Assembly: GCF_024438035.1 (NCBI RefSeq)
Contig: NZ_JANFQF010000022.1
Span: forward strand, 1 to 64,000
Length of the DNA stretch: 64,000 bases
Direction of reading: 5' to 3'
DNA from: Rhodococcus tibetensis
GTDB taxonomy: Bacteria > Actinomycetota > Actinomycetes > Mycobacteriales > Mycobacteriaceae
Below the pieces are notes generated by a model. That model was given only the letters and a program-made list of their open reading frames with translations, did no database searches and had not been told where the DNA came from. Of this stretch, positions 30,384 to 40,584 are shown piece after piece (position 1 is the first letter of the stretch; every line of letters begins with the position of its first letter). A program made the translations under genes and the position numbers.

Positions 30384-30806
30384 GTGACCGACGCGACCGC
30401 CCGTCCCAGCCGCCCCGACTCGCTGCGCGTCCTTGTCTACAGCGATGACCCGAACACCCGCCGGCAGGTCATGTCGGCTCTGGGTAAGCGTCCGCATCCC
30501 GATCTGCCGGAACTCGAATACGTGGAGGTGGCGACCGGCCCGGTGGTGATCCAGCACCTGGATGCGGGCGGGATCGACTTGGCCGTCCTGGACGGGGAGG
30601 CATCCCCGGCCGGGGGGATGGGAATTGCCAAGCAGCTGAAGGACGAAATCGACCCGTGCCCGCCTGTGCTGGTGCTGACCGGGCGAGTTGACGACGCGTG
30701 GCTTGCCAACTGGTCACGGGCCGAGGCCGCGGTTCCTCATCCGATCGACCCCATCCGGCTCGGCGAGGCGGTTGTCGCGCTGCTCCGCACTCGTATTTCG
30801 TCTTAG
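30384..30806 (+). CDS. Atypical response-regulator receiver protein upstream of nuo
   Basis: 140 residues from GTG 30384; a receiver fold without an output domain. D21/D22 (VYSDDPNT), D70 (LAVLDGEA) and T99 (VLTG) match the acidic pocket and switch residue, but the invariant Lys position reads His119 (VPHPIDP), so phosphorylation signalling is probably altered. In mycobacteria an orphan response regulator (Rv3143) also sits just upstream of nuoA, and it is conserved here in position. It may act on complex I or its expression. Confidence 0.78.
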   Translation: MTDATARPSRPDSLRVLVYSDDPNTRRQVMSALGKRPHPDLPELEYVEVATGPVVIQHLDAGGIDLAVLDGEASPAGGMGIAKQLKDEIDPCPPVLVLTGRVDDAWLANWSRAEAAVPHPIDPIRLGEAVVALLRTRISS

Positions 30807-30830
30807 GGCCGGCTCTCCGAAGCCCATCGA

Positions 30831-30850
30831 CGCGGGCAGGTCTGCCCGCG
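30831..30850 (+). terminator. GC-rich hairpin between the pseudo-receiver gene and nuoA
   Basis: CGCGGGCA and TGCCCGCG pair perfectly around GGTC, 25 bases after the pseudo-receiver stop codon, followed by CGATATTGCCTCTT, which is only moderately T-rich. It could be a terminator or attenuator separating this gene from nuo. Confidence 0.45.
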
Positions 30851-30974
30851 CGATATTGCCTCTTGACCTGCATCTTTACTGACCGATCCGCCATCCGCAA
30901 ACTGTCACGTGGCCGACGCGGTGGGAGGGAATTACACCCACGTAAATCTCTGGGGAACTGCGGGCGCTGAAACC

Positions 30975-31009
30975 GAGACAAGACCGCCGAAACCGGTAGT
31001 CTGTGTCTC
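30975..31009. promoter_or_regulatory. Inverted repeat upstream of nuoA
   Basis: GAGACA-AGAC (30975-30984) and GTCT-G-TGTCTC (30999-31009) form an interrupted inverted repeat ending about 83 bases before the nuoA start, in the 286-base region that must carry the nuo promoter. TTGACC at 30864 is a possible -35. Regulator unknown. Confidence 0.35.
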
Positions 31010-31092
31010 AACTCACATATCTACGCGCTGAGGGATTCTCGGTTCGAGGAGATGGGGTATCGCGGACAGGCTCGCAGGGAGGTGCTCAGCGC

Positions 31093-31452
31093 ATGAACGT
31101 TTACGTGCCGATTCTCGTGCTCGGAGCGATTGCTGTCGCCTTTGCGGTCGTATCGGTGATCTTGGCGTCGGTCGTCGGTCCGAAGCGCTACAACCGGGCC
31201 AAGCTCGACGCTTACGAATGCGGAATCGATCCCACCCCCCAGCCGGTGGGCGGAGGCCGCTTTCCTGTGAAGTACTACCTGACCGCCATGTTGTTCATCA
31301 TTTTCGATATCGAGATCGTGTTCCTCTACCCGTGGGCGATCCATTTCGATGCCCTCGGTTTCTTCGGTCTCGTTGCTATGGCTCTCTTCATTTTCAGCGC
31401 TGCGGTGGCCTACGTATACGAGTGGCGGCGTGGCGGTCTCAGTTGGGATTAG
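31093..31452 (+). CDS. nuoA: NADH-quinone oxidoreductase subunit A
   Basis: 119 residues, three transmembrane helices, with the conserved loop LDAYECGIDPTPQPVGGGRFPVKYY between helices 1 and 2 and FIIFDIEIVFLYPWA in helix 2. NuoA is a small membrane subunit at the junction of the quinone site and the proton channels of complex I. ATG 31093 has GGGAGGTG upstream. It is the first gene of nuoA-N; nuoB follows after 88 bases, the widest gap in the operon. Confidence 0.96.
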   Translation: MNVYVPILVLGAIAVAFAVVSVILASVVGPKRYNRAKLDAYECGIDPTPQPVGGGRFPVKYYLTAMLFIIFDIEIVFLYPWAIHFDALGFFGLVAMALFIFSAAVAYVYEWRRGGLSWD

Positions 31453-31540
31453 GTGCTTTTCGGTTGCTCGCAGTGCTCACGTATCTGCCGGGCCCCCGGA
31501 AGCGGATGAATAGCGAAACCGGAAGTAGGAAGAGTCGGAT

Positions 31541-32095
31541 ATGGGTATCGAGGAGAAGGTGCCGAGCGGCTTTCTGCTGAGCACGGTGGAAGGTCTGGCC
31601 GGCTATGTGCGGAAGGGTTCGTTGTGGCCCGCGACTTTCGGCCTCGCGTGCTGCGCTATCGAGATGATGGCCACCAGTGCCGGGAGGTTCGATATCGCCC
31701 GATTCGGTATGGAAGCGTTCCGGGCGTCTCCGCGCCAGGCCGACCTGATGATCGTCGCCGGCCGGGTCAGCCAGAAGATGGCACCGGTGCTTCGCCAGAT
31801 CTACGACCAGATGGCCGAGCCGAAGTGGGTGCTGGCGATGGGTGTCTGCGCCTCGTCGGGGGGCATGTTCAACAACTACGCCATCGTCCAAGGTGTCGAC
31901 CACGTGGTTCCGGTGGACATTTATCTGCCGGGCTGCCCTCCACGGCCGGAGATGTTGCTGCACGCGATCTTGAAGTTGCACGAGAAGATCCAGGAGATGC
32001 CGCTGGGCGTGAACCGCGAAGAGGCGGTACGTGCGGCGGAGGAGGCCGCCCTGGCCGTCACTCCGACGATCGAGATGAAGGGCTTGCTCCGATGA
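31541..32095 (+). CDS. nuoB: NADH-quinone oxidoreductase subunit B
   Basis: 184 residues. The four ligands of cluster N2 are C37 and C38 (LACCAIEMM), C103 ([10 protein letters not shown]) and C132 (LPGCPPRPE), so the terminal electron transfer to menaquinone is intact. The stop codon overlaps an ATG (ATGA, 32092) that was evidently the original nuoC start, now followed by an inserted repeat array. Confidence 0.97.
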
Positions 32096-32181
32096 CCGCC
32101 CCGAGCAAACCGAGCCATGTGGTTGTGTGCTCGGCCCGTGGGGCCTGGACTGAGGAGCGAGGGAGCGTAGCGAGTGAGTGA
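32092..32181 (+). other. Stranded original nuoC start: 29-codon ORF ending inside the repeat
   Basis: The ATG overlaps the nuoB stop in the ATGA arrangement used elsewhere in this operon. The ORF encodes MTAPSKPSH and then repeat-derived sequence, stopping at 32179-32181. The first eight codons are what remains of the nuoC N-terminus. Removing 390 bp (32111-32500) joins them in frame to [13 protein letters not shown] of NuoC. It may now act as a leader ORF that ribosomes finish before nuoC. Confidence 0.75.
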
Positions 32182-32509
32182 CGAGGGAAGGGTCCGCGAG
32201 GAAGGCCGAGCATTCGTGAGCGAAGCGAGCCATGTCTCAGCGAGCCATGTGGTTGTGTGCTCGGCCCGTGGGGCCTGGACTGAGGAGCGAGGGAGCGTAG
32301 CGAGTGAGTGACGAGGGAAGGGTCCGCGAGAAAGGCCAAGCACCTGCGAGCGAAGCGAGCCATGTCTCAGCGAGCCATGTGGTTGTGTGCTCGGCCCGTG
32401 GGGCCTGGACTGAGGAGCGAGGGAGCGTAGCGAGTGAGTGACGAGGGAAGGGTCCGCGAGGAAGGCCAAGCACCTGCGAGCGAAGCGAGCCATGTCTCAG
32501 CGAGCCATG
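32111..32509 (+). repeat. Three tandem 130-bp repeats inserted in the 5' end of nuoC
   Basis: Units at 32111-32240, 32241-32370 and 32371-32500, then the first nine bases of a fourth. Units 2 and 3 differ at one base; unit 1 differs from unit 3 at five. Each holds the hairpin GGCCC-GTG-GGGCC, purine-rich GAGCGAGGGAGCG tracts and two copies of GCGAGCCATG. I recognise this repeat style (AGCGAAGCGAGC, ACGAGGGAAGGGTCCGCGAG) as a dispersed element of rhodococcal genomes. Three units equal 390 bp, an in-frame length, but every frame carries stops. The long minus-strand frames through it are artefacts of the repeat. Confidence 0.95.
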
Positions 32510-33168
32510 ATTCAGTGATCGGTGTGCGCCGGGGGATGTTCGGTGTGCGCGGTAGTGGGGATACGTCGGGGTATGGGCGGTTGGTGAGCCCGGTGGCGTT
32601 GCCGGGCGGTTCGCCTCGCCCTTTGGGCGGGTATTTCGATGAGGTGGCGGATGGCCTCGAGGCTGCGTTGGCGGAGCGGGGTGTGGGTGTGGGGGAGGCG
32701 ATCGAGCGGATTGTCGTTTTCCGTGAGGAGTTGACATTCCATGTTCGCCGCGAGTTCTTGCCGGTGGTGGCCCGCTCGTTGCGGGATGAGCCGGGGCTGC
32801 GTTTCGAGTTGTGTTTGGGCGTCAGTGGTGTGCATTACCCGCAGGAGGTCGGCCGGGAATTGCATGCGGTGTATCCGTTGATGTCGATTACGCATAACCG
32901 TCGGGTCCGTGTGGAGGTGGCGGTGCCGGATGCGGATCCGCATGTCCCCTCGCTGTATGGCGTGTATCCGACGAATGATTGGCACGAGCGGGAGGTGTAT
33001 GACTTTTTCGGCATCGTGTTCGATGGTCATCCGTCGTTGACTCGGATCGAGATGCCTGATGACTGGTCGGGGCATCCGCAGCGTAAGGATTATCCGCTCG
33101 GCGGTATTCCTGTGGAGTTCAAGGGTGCGGAGATAGCGCCGCCCGATGAGCGGAGGGGGTACAACTGA
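32434..33168 (+). CDS. nuoC: NADH-quinone oxidoreductase subunit C with repeat-derived N-terminus
   Basis: 244 residues from GTG 32434, which lies in repeat unit 3 behind GAGGGAG; GTG 32515 just after the array is the alternative and gives 217 residues. The body is a standard actinobacterial Nuo[57 protein letters not shown] and the end [15 protein letters not shown]. NuoC is a peripheral-arm subunit that contacts NuoD and the quinone site. The core is intact, so complex I should still assemble, but initiation no longer uses the nuoB-overlapping ATG. Overlaps nuoD by one base. Confidence 0.93.
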
Positions 33169-34508
33169 TGGGCGAGGGTGCGGCGCGTGCGGAGCGGCCG
33201 GAGGTCATGGTCACTGTCGCCGGGCAGGATTGGGACGAGATCATCGCCGCGGCGAGGGTGCCTGCGGAGGGTACGGCGCAGGGGACGGGCGAGGAGCGGA
33301 TTGTCGTCAACATGGGCCCCCAGCACCCTTCTACGCATGGTGTTTTGAGGCTCATCCTGGAGATCGAGGGTGAGACGGTCACCGAGGCGCGTTGTGGAAT
33401 CGGCTACTTGCACACGGGGATAGAGAAGAACCTGGAGTACCGTAACTGGACTCAGGGTGTGACGTTCGTGACGCGGATGGATTATTTGTCACCGTTCTTC
33501 AACGAGGTGGCGTACTGCCTGGGTGTGGAGAAGTTGCTGGGGGTCACCGAGGAGGTTCCGGAGCGGGCCACGGTTGTCCGGGTGATGCTGATGGAGCTCA
33601 ACCGCATTTCGTCGCATTTGGTGGCGTTGGCCACGGGTGGCATGGAGTTGGGTGCCGTCACGGCGATGTTGTTCGGTTTCCGTGAGCGTGAGCTGATTCT
33701 GGACGTCTTCGAGGCCATCACGGGGCTTCGGATGAATCATGCTTTCATCCGGCCGGGTGGGCTCGCCCAGGACCTTCCGGCCGGTGCTGTGGAAAAGGTT
33801 CGTGAGCTGCTGACGGTGATGCCGTCGCGGATACGGGATATGGAGAACCTGCTCAACGAGAACCGGATCTGGAAGGCCCGTACCGAGGGCATCGGGTACT
33901 TGGATCTTACGGGTTGTATGGCGTTGGGGATCACCGGCCCGATGCTTCGTGCCACCGGGTTGCCGCACGATCTGCGGAAGTCGGAACCCTACTGCGGTTA
34001 CGAGAGTTATGAGTTCGACGTCTGCACCCACACGGGTTGTGACGCGTACGGCCGGTATCTGATCCGAGTCGACGAAATGAAGGAGTCGCTGAAGATCGTC
34101 GAGCAGTGCCTCGACCGTTTGCGTCCCGGCCCCGTCATGATCGAGGACAGGAAGATTGCCTGGCCCGCGGATTTGACCTTGGACAGTGACGGATTGGGAA
34201 ACTCGACCAAGCATGTACGCAAGATCATGGACACCTCGATGGAGTCGTTGATCCACCACTTCAAGTTGGTGACCGAGGGTTTCCGGGTACCGCCAGGCCA
34301 GGTGTATGTGGCGGTGGAATCTCCGCGTGGAGAATTGGGTGTGCACATGGTCAGCGACGGCGGCACCCGCCCGTATCGGGTGCACTACCGCGACCCCTCG
34401 TTCACCAACTTGCAGGCTGTCGCCGCCATGTGTGAGGGCGGCATGGTGTCGGATGTCATCGCCGCGGTCGCCAGCATCGACCCTGTCATGGGCGGAGTGG
34501 ACCGATGA
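33168..34508 (+). CDS. nuoD: NADH-quinone oxidoreductase subunit D
   Basis: 446 residues. [23 protein letters not shown] carries the His of the quinone pocket, followed by [32 protein letters not shown] and a C-terminal VGGVDR-type end (DPVMGGVDR). NuoD is the 49-kDa-type subunit that forms the quinone-binding cavity with NuoB. The ATG overlaps the nuoC stop (TGATG). Confidence 0.96.
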
Positions 34509-35479
34509 AACCTCTGCCTGGTAGTTCAGCGCAGGTACCCGCGAGCGCAGTGAGCCAAAGTACGCGCGTGTTCATCGAATTCGGCCCGCGGCCTGAGGAG
34601 AACGGCCAACTCGTAAGGCCGGGTGCCCGAGAGAGCTATCCGCCGGAGGTTCGGGCCAGGTTGGGCGCGGACGCCGCCGAGATCATCGGCCGCTATCCGA
34701 AGCCGGGGGTGGAGCCGGGCGAGCGACCCCAGAACACCGCACGGTCAGCGTTGTTGCCATTGCTGCACTTGGTGCAGGCGGAGGACGGGTACATCAGTCC
34801 GGCGGGCGTGGACTTCTGCTCCGATCAGCTCGGTCTCACAGGGGCGGAGGTGGCTGCGGTGGCCACCTTCTATTCGATGTACCGGCGCAATCCGACCGGT
34901 GACTACTTCGTCGGAGTCTGCACCAACACGTTGTGCGCGATCATGGGCGGTGATGCGATTCTCGCTGCGCTCGAGGATCACCTCGGTGTGCGACCGGGCG
35001 AGACGACGCCGGACGGCAAGGTCACCGTGGAGCACATCGAATGCAACGCGGCCTGCGATTTCGCGCCTGTCGTCATGGTCAATTGGGAGTTTTTCGACAA
35101 CCAGTCCCCGGAATCAGCACGCACATTGGTGGATTCGCTTCGGTCCGGGGAGAAGGTCACGCCCAGCCGGGGAGCGCCGCTGTGCACGTTCCGGGAGACG
35201 GCTCGCGTGCTTGCCGGTTTCCCCGACGAGCGGCCCGGGGCGTTGGAAGCCGGCGGCGGCGCCGGCCACGCCACGTTGGCCGGGTTGCAGGTTGCCCGGA
35301 AACTCGACATGGATGCGCCATCTCCGTCGGCCGGACCATCTGGGTCCGGGCCGCAGGCCGAGATCGGCGAGTCGTTGGCGGCGGAGTCGACGAAGGACAA
35401 GCCGGCTCCCGCACCGTCCGAACCGGCGCCGCCGGGCGCATCCACTTCTGGGACCGACCCGACACACAAGGGAGACTGA
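34505..35479 (+). CDS. nuoE: NADH-quinone oxidoreductase subunit E with long C-terminal tail
   Basis: 324 residues. The thioredoxin-like [2Fe-2S] N1a domain has C-x4-C (CTNTLC) and C-x3-C (CNAAC). Beyond about residue 225 it continues as a Pro/Ser/Gly/Glu-rich, disordered tail ([24 protein letters not shown]), so it is about 70-100 residues longer than typical NuoE. It works with NuoF and NuoG in the NADH-oxidising module. The start overlaps nuoD (ATGA). Near the start it has a 19-bp sequence resembling the nuoC repeat tail. Confidence 0.94.
34538..34556. repeat. 19-bp sequence resembling the 130-bp repeat tail (nuoE copy)
   Basis: CCCGCGAGCGCAGTGAGCC here and CCTGCTAACGAAGTGAGCC at 36791-36809 (codons 6-12 of nuoG) each match 16 of 19 bases of CCTGCGAGCGAAGCGAGCC from repeat units 2 and 3. 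All three lie within the first codons of nuo genes. They may be degenerate remnants of the same element or chance in GC-rich sequence. Confidence 0.35.
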
Positions 35480-35480
35480 G

Positions 35481-36779
35481 GTGCCGCTGACTCCTGTCCT
35501 GAGCCGGTATTGGGATGACCCCCAGTCCTGGACTCTCGACACCTACCACCGCCACGACGGGTACGAGGCGCTGCGTAAAGCGCTGAAGATGCAGCCGGAC
35601 GAGGTCATCGACACGATCAAGGATTCGGGGCTGCGCGGTCGTGGTGGTGCCGGATTCCCGACTGGGGTGAAGTGGGGTTTCATCCCGCAGGACGACGCCA
35701 AACCGCACTATCTGGTGGTCAACGCGGACGAGTCCGAGCCCGGCACCTGCAAGGACATTCCGCTGATGCTGGCCACCCCGCACGCGCTGGTCGAGGGTGT
35801 CATCATCGCCGCGTACGCCATTCGCTCGAGCCACGCCTTCATCTATCTGCGCGGCGAAGTGGTGCCGGTGCTGCGTCGCCTGCAGGCTGCGGTATCCGAG
35901 GCGCACGCCGCCGGGTACCTGGGCCGCAACATTCTCGGTAGCGGGTACGACCTCGACCTCGTGGTCCACGCCGGTGCGGGCGCGTACATCTGCGGCGAGG
36001 AAACTGCTCAGCTCGATTCTCTGGAAGGACGGCGCGGACAGCCCCGGTTGCGTCCCCCGTTCCCCGCGGTGGCGGGGTTGTACGCCTGCCCGACGGTCGT
36101 CAACAACGTCGAATCGATCGCGAGCGTGCCGCCGATCCTGAGGAACGGGATCGAGTGGTTCCGTTCGATGGGTACGGAGAAATCGCCCGGATTCACCCTC
36201 TACTCGCTGTCCGGTCACGTCACCCGGCCCGGACAGTACGAGGCGCCGCTCGGCATCACGCTGCGGGAGCTGCTCGAGTACGCGGGGGGAATGCGCGCGG
36301 GGCATCAGCTGAAGTTCTGGACCCCGGGTGGTTCGTCGACCCCGATGTTCACCGACGAGCACCTCGATGTTCCGCTCGACTACGAGGGTGTGGGCGCAGC
36401 AGGATCGATGCTGGGCACCAAGGCTTTACAGCTGTTCGACGAGACCACCTGCGTGGTGCGCGCGGTGCTGCGCTGGACGGAATTCTATGCCCACGAATCG
36501 TGTGGCAAGTGCACACCCTGCCGGGAAGGCACCTACTGGCTGGTGCAAATTCTGCAGCGTCTCGAGAGCGGCGGCGGTTCCGAGTCCGACCTGGAGAAGT
36601 TGCTCGACATTTCCGACAGCATCCTCGGGAAGTCGTTCTGTGCCCTCGGTGACGGGGCGGCCAGCCCGATCATGTCTTCCCTGAAGTACTTCCGGGACGA
36701 GTATGTCGCGCACTTCGAACAGGGCGGCTGCCCGTTCGACCCCCACCAGTCAACTCTCATGGCAGGAGTTCACGCGTGA
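35481..36779 (+). CDS. nuoF: NADH-quinone oxidoreductase subunit F
   Basis: 432 residues. The FMN/NADH-binding motif [13 protein letters not shown] and the [12 protein letters not shown] segment are intact, as are the [4Fe-4S] N3 ligands in [12 protein letters not shown] and the distant Cys in SFCALGDGA. It takes hydride from NADH to FMN and passes electrons to the Fe-S chain. The GTG start lies one base after the nuoE stop, with GGGAG upstream; the frame stays open well into nuoE, but that part is out of frame with nuoE and not coding. Confidence 0.96.
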
Positions 36780-39235
36780 CAGCCCAGGTGCCTGCTAACG
36801 AAGTGAGCCTCCTCATCGACGGCGCCGATGTCAGCGTTCCGAAGGGCACCCTGTTGATTCGCGCCGCTGAGCTGGCCGGAATCCAGATTCCGCGGTTCTG
36901 TGACCATCCGCTGCTCGATCCGGTGGGCGCCTGCCGTCAGTGTCTGGTCGAGGTGGAGGGGCAGCGAAAGCCGTTGGCCTCCTGCACGACCACCGTCACC
37001 GACGGCATGGTGGTGCGCACTCAGCTCACCTCGGCTGCCGCAGACAAGGCGCAGAAGGGTGTGATGGAGTTGCTGCTCATCAACCATCCGCTCGACTGCC
37101 CGGTCTGCGACAAGGGCGGCGAGTGCCCCCTACAGAATCAGGCCATGTCCAACGGGCGGGCAGAGTCGCGTTTCGAAGAAGTCAAACGCACGTTCCCCAA
37201 GCCGATTCCACTCTCCTCACAGGTGTTGCTGGACCGGGAGCGGTGCGTGCTGTGCGCCCGGTGCACGCGATTCTCGCAGCAGGTCGCCGGCGATCCGTTC
37301 ATCGAACTCCAGGAGCGGGGTGCGCTGCAACAGGTCGGCATCTATGCCAAGGAACCGTTCGAGTCGTACTTTTCCGGCAACACCGTGCAGATCTGCCCGG
37401 TCGGTGCGCTGACGGGTGCTGCGTACCGGTTCCGTGCGCGTCCGTTCGACCTCGTCTCCAGTCCCAGCGTTTGCGAGCACTGCTCGAGCGGCTGCGCCCA
37501 GCGCACCGACCACCGCCGCGGCAAGGTGTTGCGACGATTGGCCGGGGACGACCCGCAGGTCAACGAGGAGTGGAACTGCGACAAGGGGCGGTGGGCTTTC
37601 ACCTACGCCACCGAGGGCGACCGCCTCACCACCCCGCTGGTCCGCGACGACACGGGCACGCTGGTGCCCGCTTCGTGGCCGGATGCCCTCGCGGTTGCGT
37701 CCCGGGGGTTGGCGGCCGCACGAGGCAACGCGGGGGTTCTCGTCGGCGGCCGGGCGACGGCGGAAGACGCATACGCCTACGCGAAATTCGCGCGAGTTGC
37801 GCTGGAGACCAACGATATCGACTTCAGGATCCGGCCGCATTCCGCCGAAGAGGCCGACTTCCTGGCGGCACGGGTCGCGGGCCGCGGACTCGAGGTCACA
37901 TACGACGATCTGGAGAAGGCCCCCGCCGTCCTCCTCGTCGCGTTCGAGCCCGAGGAGGAGTCGCCCATCATCTTCCTGCGGCTCCGCAAGGCGGCACGCA
38001 TGAAGGGACACGGGGTGTACTCGATCGCCCCCTTCACCACCCGCAGCTTGTCGAAGATGTCGGGTCGGTTGCTGCGTGCGGTGCCCGGAGCCGAGCCGCA
38101 GCTGCTCGAAGCGCTCGTCAGCGACCCGGAAACCCGGCTCGACGAACATGGCGTGGCCGTCGCGGATGCGTTGCGTCAACCGGGCGCGGTCATCCTCGTG
38201 GGCGAACGACTGGCGAACGTTCCCGGCGGGCTCTCCGCGGCCGTGCGCCTCGCGGACGCCACCGGCGCGCGCCTGGCGTGGGTGCCGCGACGGGCCGGTG
38301 AGCGGGGCGCGCTCGAAGCGGGCGCCCTGCCCGGACTTCTACCCGGGGGTCGGCCCATCGATGATTCGAAGGCGAGGCGGCAGGTGACGTCAGTTTGGAA
38401 CGTGCCGGAGCTGCCGTCGGATCCTGGTCGTGGCACCGAGGAAATCCTTGCCGCGGCGGCAGCCGGCACGCTCGGCGCACTGGTGGTCGGTGGGGTGGAG
38501 GTCGCCGACCTGCCCGATCCCAGGGCTGCCCTGTCGGCAGTCGAGGCAGCCGACTTCGTCGTCAGTCTGGAACTGCGCAGCAGTGAAGTGACCGAACGGG
38601 CGGACGTGGTCTTCCCCGTCGCACCGGTGGTGGAGAAACCGGGCACCTTCCTCGACTGGGAGGGCAGGCCGCGGGTGTTCGAGGCGGCGTTGCGCGGAAC
38701 GGGTGCCATGCCCGACCAGCGGGTGCTTCATGCCCTCGCTCACGAAATGAACATCCCGCTCGGGCTTCCGGACGCCGCCGCGGCGCGCGCGGAACTGGGG
38801 CGACTCAACCTTTGGGACGGTGAGCGACCGGCCGGGCCTGCGTATTCTCCGCGGGAGGTGCCGCAGCCCGGTCCGGGTGAAGCCGTTCTGGCGAGTTGGC
38901 GGATGCTCCTCGATTCCGGCCGTCTGCAGGACGGGGAACCCCATCTTGCCGGGACCGCTCGAACACCGGTCGTCCGCTTGTCGGCCGCGTCGGCTACCGA
39001 GATCGGTGCCGGAGAGGGTTCTGCGGTGACCGTCAGCACCGAACGAGGATCGGTCACCCTCCCGTTGGTGATCGCCGACTTACCCGATCGGGTGGTGTGG
39101 ATTCCACTCAACTCACCCGGTTCCGCAGTCTTCCGGCAACTCGCAGTCTCGTCGGGGAGCGTCGTCCGCGTCGCGAGTGCGGTCGGCGCCGAGTCGACGA
39201 GTTCGACGCCGAATGCGCCCGAGGAGGTCTCGTGA
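36776..39235 (+). CDS. nuoG: NADH-quinone oxidoreductase subunit G with N7 cluster ligands
   Basis: 819 residues. N-terminal Fe-S ligands: C42, C53, C56, C70 ([2Fe-2S] N1b); H104, C108, C111, C117 (N5-type HxxxCxxCxxxxxC); C157, C160, C163, C207 (N4). A further C233-x2-C236-x3-C240-x27-C268 set matches the extra N7 cluster found in E. coli and Thermus. The rest is a molybdopterin-oxidoreductase-like domain without cofactor function in complex I. The GTG start overlaps nuoF by four bases. Confidence 0.95.
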
Positions 39236-40584
39236 CCGTTCTTTCGCTCGACTACCCCGACCCGTCGTTGTTCGGCCACGACCCGTGGTGGCTGATCCTC
39301 GGGAAGGCTCTCGCCGTCTTCGTGTTCCTCATCCTGACCCCGCTGATCGCGATCCTCGCCGAGCGCAAGGTCATGGCCAGGATGCAGATGCGGATCGGCC
39401 CCAACCGCGTGGGCCCTGGAGGCATGCTGCAGAGCCTCGCCGACGGGGTCAAGCTGGCGCTGAAGGAGGGCATCACCCCGAAGGGCGTCGACAAGCCGAT
39501 CTATCTGCTTGCGCCGATCATCGCCGCAGTGCCCGCGTTCATGGCCTTTGCGGTCATCCCGTTCGGCCCGGAAGTCTCGATCCTCGGTCACCGCACGGCA
39601 CTTCAGCTGACGGACCTCCCAGTGGCCGTCCTGTACGTCCTCGCGGTCACTTCCGTCGGTGTCTACGGGATCATCCTCGCCGGGTGGGCGTCGGGCTCGA
39701 CCTACCCTCTGCTCGGCGGTCTGCGGTCGACGGCGCAGGTGATCTCGTACGAGATCGCGATGGCGCTGTCGTTCGCCGCTGTGTTCCTGCACGCGGGCAC
39801 GATGTCCACGTCGGGGATCGTGGCGGCGCAAGACCGTATCTGGTACGTATTCCTCTTGCTCCCTTCGTTTCTCATCTATGTCACCTCGATGGTCGGGGAG
39901 ACGAACCGTGCCCCGTTCGACCTGCCCGAGGCCGAGGGTGAGCTCGTCGGCGGATTCCACACGGAGTACTCCTCGCTGAAATTCGCCATGTTCATGCTCG
40001 CCGAATACGTGAACATGGTGACGGTGTCCGCGCTCGCCACCACACTGTTCCTCGGTGGCTGGCATGCGCCCTGGCCCTTCAACATGTGGGAAGGCGCCAA
40101 TACGGGTTGGCTGCCCGTCTTGTGGTTCACCCTGAAGGTCTGGGGATTCCTCTTCGTCTTCATCTGGTTGCGGGGCACGCTTCCGCGACTGCGCTACGAC
40201 CAGTTCATGAACATGGGCTGGAAAATACTGATTCCGGTGTCGCTGGTGTGGATCATGATCGTCGCCACGGTGCGGGCATTCCGCAACGACGGGTACGACT
40301 TCTGGCCGGTCGCCCTCGTCACCGCAGGCGTGACCCTCGGGCTGGTGGTGCTCGCGATGCTGTGGGCCCGCCTCCGTCGCAGTCGAACTCGCGCTTCTGG
40401 CGAAGCCGCGCAATCCCATACCGGAGGTGACACTCCTGCCGCTCGCCCGTTCGACCCCATGGCAGGAGGTTTCCCGGTGCCGCCGATGCCCGGACAGCGC
40501 ACACCAGTGCCCCCACGCACCCCCGTCGCCGTGGGTCGTTCCGCAGGCTCCGCTCGAACGAACAAGGAGGACAGCGATGTCTAA
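39232..40584 (+). CDS. nuoH: NADH-quinone oxidoreductase subunit H
   Basis: 450 residues, about eight membrane helices. It has the NuoH loops [21 protein letters not shown], the SYEIAMALS stretch, and the acidic quinone-channel motif [24 protein letters not shown]. NuoH links the quinone cavity to the membrane arm. A C-terminal extension of about 60 residues rich in Pro, Ala and Arg follows the last helix. The GTG start overlaps nuoG (GTGA) with GAGGAGG upstream; the end overlaps nuoI by eight bases. Confidence 0.96.

Follow-up and report, generated by a model that had tools for sequence, protein, structure and literature searches.

Across the start of nuoC in Rhodococcus tibetensis, within the 64,000-nt stretch of DNA that was analysed (the window), stands a three-unit array of a structured repeat that probably settled long ago where start and stop codons overlap in the nuo operon of a single Rhodococcus clade, would act there as a translational relay and has lately been tripled. 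On our best reading of the sequences, this is a MIRU-like element kept as a start/stop relay that would preserve translational coupling, and only the amplification to three units would be recent; the element looks like an old, adopted link between genes and not like a fresh, gene-breaking insertion.

In the proposed mechanism, ribosomes ending nuoB would restart at the ATGA overlap, translate a mini-ORF into the hairpin of the repeat and so open it, halt at the TAG/TGA/TGA stops around the GTG in the hairpin head, and restart there on NuoC, which as a result would bear a repeat-encoded N-terminal peptide. Such a relay would tolerate any number of units: with one ORF closed and another opened in every unit, NuoC should be indifferent to how many there are.

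The three-unit array at the nuoB/nuoC junction

Tandem Repeats Finder reported a period of 130 in 3.1 copies at 32111-32509 (97% matches, score 756), and comparison of the units (6 differing positions between units 1 and 2, 5 between units 1 and 3, and 1 between units 2 and 3) confirmed that the 3 x 130 bp array at 32111-32500, a tandem element in the nuoC start region as initially annotated, is real. An assembly artefact is conceivable, but the three units are not identical, and related copies occupy the orthologous place in other assemblies. The whole assembly (5.8 Mb) was also searched for the repeat, as had been suggested, and the array was found at one place only: a DNA search found no further copy of the 400-bp array stretch, and both the 13-mer GAGCGAAGCGAGC and the 26-mer of the head, with up to 3 mismatches allowed, were found at the array only.

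The open reading frames of the junction form a chain from nuoB over a mini-ORF and two further short frames to nuoC (Table 1). The first reading of this DNA had correctly placed an ATG at 32092 over the nuoB stop (ATGA) and seen its frame, MTAPSKPSH, run into the array, where it ends at the TGA at 32179-32181 inside unit 1. The stops that it noted in the array look like the ends of relay ORFs and not like damage. Both NuoC starts that it considered, GTG 32434 behind GAGGGAG and GTG 32515, are present, and 32434 is the likely start, with the N-terminal extension of predicted NuoC being repeat-encoded. Among 20 of 120 listed proteins, predicted NuoC P0002-P0006 and P0008 start at the corresponding codon in the head, the nearest NuoC with the extension being P0002 of R. 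oxybenzonivorans (90% identical), and P0007, a predicted Rhodococcus NuoC, is annotated from a later start (MGIRRGLF). Omitting 32111-32500 does, by inspection, give an open frame, but this apparent restoration of the gene is incidental, because relatives with one or two units keep the in-frame geometry and 130 is not a multiple of 3; the geometry is kept since the NuoC start is taken from the last unit. Recent amplification, also proposed at the outset, agrees with the near identity of units 2 and 3 and with the single unit of the nearest relative, G013.

Table 1. Coordinates of repeat-associated features in the window
Feature	Position	Strand	Basis or remark
nuoB	31541..32095	+	ORF; stop overlaps next start as ATGA
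Mini-ORF 1	32092..32181	+	From nuoB ATGA overlap to TGA at +5 of unit 1 start codon
Repeat unit 1, 130 bp	32111..32240	+	Tandem Repeats Finder, unit comparison
Repeat unit 2, 130 bp	32241..32370	+	Tandem Repeats Finder, unit comparison
Repeat unit 3, 130 bp	32371..32500	+	Tandem Repeats Finder, unit comparison
9-base beginning of further copy	32501-32509	+	Directly after unit 3
Unit 1 hairpin: 20-pair stem, 42-nt head, 5-nt bulge on 3' side	32127..32213	+	R1 model columns 10-96
Unit 2 hairpin	32257..32343	+	R1 model
Unit 3 hairpin	32387..32473	+	R1 model
Unit 3 head	32407..32448	+	Drawable as tandem G.A steps plus Watson-Crick/wobble pairs, GUA triloop
Unit 1 and unit 2 heads	32147-32188; 32277-32318	+	Same as unit 3 head
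GAGGGAG, Shine-Dalgarno-like	32419..32425	+	Sequence; 8 nt upstream of GTG 32434
GAGGGAG of units 1 and 2	32159-32165; 32289-32295	+	Sequence
Three-frame stops around start codon	32428..32441	+	TAG 32428, TGA 32435, TGA 32439
Relay ORF 2, 45 codons	32174..32311	+	Starts at unit 1 GTG, ends at unit 2 TGA
Relay ORF 3, 45 codons	32304..32441	+	Starts at unit 2 GTG, ends at unit 3 TGA
Accessory 3' mini-hairpin GCGAGCGAAGCGAGC, unit 3	32476..32490	+	
GAGCGAAGCGAGC in units 1 and 2	32218-32230; 32348-32360	+	
nuoC, most likely translated form	32434..33168	+	ORF; predicted NuoC P0002-P0006 begin alike
Probable remnant of lost copy, nuoD/nuoE	34505..34559	+	Weak model match, E = 0.02; comparison with G005
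Possible remnant, nuoF/nuoG	36776..36812	+	Model match, E = 1.1, not significant alone

Further down the same operon, the window may hold traces of lost copies. In R. opacus (G005), the element at nuoD/nuoE is flanked by a mini-ORF beginning MRPLPRSS... and by an extension ...QAQAPASAASQS, and from comparison of the window NuoE start with these two the window nuoE looks like a fusion left by the loss of a copy. At nuoF/nuoG, G013 has VTAQVPASAASK, which resembles the 3' end of the element, and the window NuoG start may be another scar.

Orthologous and dispersed copies

Of 28 Rhodococcus genomes, 11 have the element at the nuoB/nuoC junction, the present one included: the other ten are R. koreensis DSM 44498 (G001), R. 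opacus ATCC 51881 (G005), G006, G013, R. wratislaviensis NCTC13229 (G016), G019, G020, R. jostii NBRC 16295 (G023), G024 and G026, and it is absent from the 14 other Rhodococcus nuoB/nuoC junctions that were read. The alignment of this junction across Rhodococcus that had been suggested as a check thus found one or two copies in other genomes (mostly one, two in G024, and extra partial pieces in some), but it does not bear out a recent insertion. The window NuoB is 84-100% identical to the NuoB of 34 loci, those of the own genome counted in.

Whole nuo operons were read in 20 of 60 relatives, which we chose ourselves and of which a few loci end before nuoN. In these and the window, copies occur at nuoB/nuoC, at nuoD/nuoE in G005, G012 and G007 and at nuoF/nuoG in G001, G005, G016, G019, G020 (twice), G024 and G026; over all nuo junctions the number of units ranges from one to three. 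The copies at nuoD/nuoE and nuoF/nuoG are missing from several genomes of the clade, so a relay must be dispensable there. A NuoB+NuoD tree (22 rows, midpoint-rooted) unites all 11 Rhodococcus genomes that carry the nuoB/nuoC element in one supported group (99/94) with G012 and G007, which carry the element at nuoD/nuoE only. At nuoF/nuoG of G024 (L050), the mini-ORF upstream of the element contains several in-frame 30-bp repeats (ARAVTRRRGD), so the frame also stays open when the leader itself lengthens in tandem.

A covariance model (R1) built from 21 of the 25 nuo elements gave 26 matches at E <= 1e-3 in 13 of the 28 Rhodococcus genomes, counts that are lower bounds, as at most 131 candidates per genome were scored, and all 26 fall, by position, in the nuo operon. 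A weaker match in G006 (position 6533678, E 0.035) is its nuoB/nuoC element, and weak matches outside nuo were seen in G010 and G017 (E about 0.05).

Beyond the genus, the family is dispersed. With at most 18 candidates per genome scored, 34 of 201 family genomes gave matches at E <= 0.1, and six of the 34 belong to the own genus; dispersed copies occur in Williamsia (g32), Antrihabitans (g37), a genus g44 that is probably Nocardia, and a metagenome-assembled genome (MAG), RYN_227, which is the source of 15 of the 34 element-bearing stretches. Scoring at most 150 candidates per genome, hence again with lower bounds, we counted at least 14 copies in G186, 25 in G108, 15 in G110 and 83 in G130, and one in G028; G186 and G110 are assigned to Williamsia and Antrihabitans by genus labels that they have in common with named genomes. 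Tandem or inverted pairs are frequent among the dispersed copies, and tandem growth seems usual for this hairpin family. Many of the hairpin copies on G130:C1 (genus g44, at least 83) form tandem pairs about 121 bp apart. Of 79 elements, 25 lie between convergent genes, 32 between co-directional and 4 between divergent ones, while 14 fall within a called gene and 4 at the edge of a locus, a rough division by a crude GC3 gene caller that mis-called the co-directional nuoB/nuoC element of L108 as convergent. The record of one locus (L181), titled Kitasatospora arboriphila NRRL B-24581 contig3.1, is equal in length to G152:C3, which bears the genus label of the Williamsia genomes, and its name looks wrong.

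Three Williamsia and two g44 genomes that carry dispersed copies have nuoB/nuoC junctions without the element. Of the two Antrihabitans genomes looked at, G110 has it at nuoB/nuoC in the same geometry, with the mini-ORF stop at +5 and the GTG in frame with NuoC, and G092 (Antrihabitans stalactiti) does not. The element-free junction of the latter (L189) reads ATGAGCCAAACAAGCACC, near the 3' tail of the element, GAGCCAAACCAACAC, and could be what a deletion left behind or else point to the target site. As for the target suggested for the array itself, CGAGCCATG, this sequence is in many relatives part of the element's own 3' end.

Hairpin structure and start/stop geometry

The stem of the hairpin is maintained by compensatory change. 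In alignment A1, comprising 21 of the 25 nuo elements (left out were the nuoB/nuoC element of G013 and the second nuoF/nuoG unit of G020, both without the 5' arm, and the old nuoD/nuoE copies of G012 and G007), 94.5% of the cells of the 20-pair stem are paired as against 31-53% in slid controls, and 13 of 20 stem pairs have changes on both sides, with 7.7 in shuffles. Alignment A3 holds 97 matches, of which 84 are distinct; having been fitted to the model, it is biased towards pairs. In it, compensatory changes affect 19 of 20 pairs (16.3 in shuffles, of which 3 in 500 reached as high a value), and double-change cells number 405 versus 108 in shuffles. Among imperfect cells, G.U outnumbers A.C on the strand as read (25:4 in A1, 63:5 in A3; the fitting of A3 leans the same way, that of A1 does not), which suggests that it is the purine-rich strand that folds, and in nuo this strand is the mRNA. 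Some junctions do without the complete hairpin, since the nuoB/nuoC element of G013 has only its 3' half and the second nuoF/nuoG unit of G020 likewise lacks the 5' arm.

The conserved head of 42 to 44 nt can be drawn as tandem G.A/A.G steps with Watson-Crick and wobble pairs under a GNA triloop, and the heads of Williamsia and g44 follow the same G.A zipper pattern in other letters. By a zipper score devised after the pattern was seen, 40 of 60 loops beat all of their 60 shuffles (for a 61st loop z was undefined), as did 40 of the 56 full-length distinct loops, at a mean z of 2.97. The nuo start codon breaks one pair of the drawn zipper. Standard RNA energies give paired probabilities of 0.30 for the ribosome-binding site and 0.15 for the GTG, meaning that both are mostly unpaired, so any gating of initiation by the hairpin would rest on the non-canonical G.A pairs.

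All 21 element-bearing junctions have an upstream ATGA or GTGA overlap, and from each of these overlaps a mini-ORF stays open to the head, with 12.0 such cases expected from dinucleotide shuffles, at a chance of P 0.19-0.88 for a single junction; the other two frames are open to the head at 13 and 10 of the 21 junctions, which are related by descent and not 21 independent events. At 20 of 21 junctions the stop codon of the mini-ORF lies at -6, +1 or +5 relative to the start in the first unit; the exception is nuoF/nuoG of G020, where the frame runs on past that start and ends at +5 relative to the start in the second unit. In all 25 nuo elements the head start codon is GTG or ATG, and the last unit at each of the 21 junctions is in frame with NuoC, NuoE or NuoG. 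The nuoF/nuoG heads of three genomes carry a synonymous change after the start codon (AGT GAC to AGC GAT), and the nuoD/nuoE head of G005 carries a non-synonymous one (MSIE).

Of the 96 other matched rows, with duplicate loci counted, 60 read CTG at this position of the head and 4 read GTG, and 32 have another head. The commonest nuoB/nuoC head is one base, the G of GTG, away from the head of seven other matched rows, and the three of those seven that were displayed come from MAG RYN_227. A GTG at the head start position was also seen in L152, L171, L132 and L140, loci without a nuo match, of which the MAG copy L152 carries the nuo-type head. Stops in all three frames are found outside nuo as well, as dispersed MAG copies have the same head bases, and the TAG among them is absent from nuoF/nuoG and nuoD/nuoE heads.

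Competing readings and related systems

A once-mobile hairpin could have remained in nuo as a passenger with no function beyond a tolerable start codon, surviving only because nuoC, nuoE and nuoG now take their starts from it and nothing short of an exact in-frame deletion would remove it cleanly. Such a history, which we consider rather unlikely, would suit a family that is dispersed elsewhere and mostly intergenic by the rough gene call, whose copies come and go at nuo junctions and have left probable scars in the own genome, and whose unit number varies from 1 to 3 per junction, but against it stand the confinement of the Rhodococcus family to nuo (26 of 26 matches at E <= 1e-3) at three different junctions, the retained compensatory stem changes and the open mini-ORFs. 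If the element is the translational relay that we favour, selection for coupling would have kept it in nuo.

Alternatively, the hairpin might bind a protein or mark sites of nuo mRNA processing and thereby set segmental stability or subunit ratios, with translation being secondary. The pairing biased to the RNA sense, the strongly conserved head and the recurrence of the element at three junctions within the same operon would fit a regulatory RNA of this kind; we nevertheless hold it to be improbable, given that no partner protein is known, that dispersed copies adjoin genes other than nuo, and that the nuo start codon breaks a zipper pair, which points to translation.

The view of the initial annotation, in which a recent and still unstable mobile insertion disrupted a working nuoC in the present lineage, draws on the near-identical units and on an in-frame excision that is possible on paper, but it can hardly be right, as no other copy was found in the own genome and the orthologous elements in ten other Rhodococcus and one Antrihabitans led us to reject a fresh insertion. 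Its interpretation as a whole is partly supported.

Several origins and known families were set aside. The array has no match in plasmids or phages; two dispersed copies searched against plasmids and one searched against phages gave no match either. Rfam covariance models matched nothing in window positions 30500-40000 at E <= 1 or in 8 element-bearing loci at E <= 0.1, which speaks against a known RNA family. A REP/RAYT system was rejected because no Y1 transposase (PF01797, RAYT/IS200-like) was found in any of 8 genomes from four genera, with the control set positive in 5 of 14 named genomes. Among the top-listed titles and abstract beginnings of a mostly open-access literature we found no description of the element or of a repeat in Rhodococcus nuo, and no paper on a DTGA target; the element may be previously undescribed.

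The closest likeness is to MIRUs, which, according to a 2025 review (PMC12548453, citing Supply 1997), appear mobile, insert at start codons and are short repeats at operon start/stop overlaps with an internal ORF coupled to the neighbouring gene at -4 nt. The nuo element likewise lies at overlapping stop and start codons between operon genes at 21 of 21 junctions. Its mini-ORF overlaps the upstream gene by 4 nt and stops at -6, +1 or +5 of the downstream start. To our knowledge, however, MIRUs are without dyad symmetry, whereas the nuo element is a long covarying hairpin with the downstream start inside its head, and it is not interspersed at many loci, being found at nuoB/nuoC only in the own genome and in one operon within Rhodococcus; the likeness drawn here is one of description.

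REP and BIME elements are hairpins scattered through genomes, for the most part between genes and often as pairs or tandem arrays, and the present family resembles them in all of this but differs from REP/BIME with RAYT in its long hairpin, conserved head, variable stems and lack of a Y1 transposase in the 8 genomes. The head also ends in GCGNAGC, the 3' tail contains GCGAAGC and tandem G.A steps can be drawn, as in d(GCGNAGC) mini-hairpins. These mini-hairpins and tandem sheared G.A motifs, which are unusually stable, are known from structural work on synthetic DNA; the RNA fold proposed for the element is drawn from sequence.

Models of translational coupling, as treated in the same review (PMC12548453), invoke termination-reinitiation or RNA unfolding, in which an upstream ribosome opens a hairpin. 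The start/stop overlap and a hairpin in the path of the upstream ribosome correspond to the ingredients described there, but ordinary coupling is built into one junction and the present repeat is a module found at three junctions that can be multiplied in tandem.

More tentatively, and as a possibility rather than an expectation, we suggest that Rhodococcus has domesticated, within its complex I operon, an undescribed and otherwise dispersed structured-RNA repeat of Mycobacteriales with a G.A-zipper head, which the change of one head position to a start codon would have made an initiation module. Its copies at nuoB/nuoC, nuoD/nuoE and nuoF/nuoG might then equip three subunits with repeat-encoded N-terminal peptides of one kind and make the translation of each depend on that of the subunit before it, independently of copy number and, at nuoB/nuoC, of the incoming frame.

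The relay would mean that a repeat can lodge where a respiratory operon leaves least room, at an overlap of start and stop codons, and yet leave the operon intact by bringing its own stop and start. With 0, 1, 2 or 3 units, at three junctions, and with and without the 5' arm, Rhodococcus offers a natural series that could be used for tests of termination-reinitiation and RNA unfolding in actinobacteria. The element also belongs to a hairpin-repeat family in Williamsia, Antrihabitans and probably Nocardia that is missing from Rfam, and it may add a shared kind of N-terminal peptide to NuoC, NuoE and NuoG that annotators would read as ordinary coding sequence.
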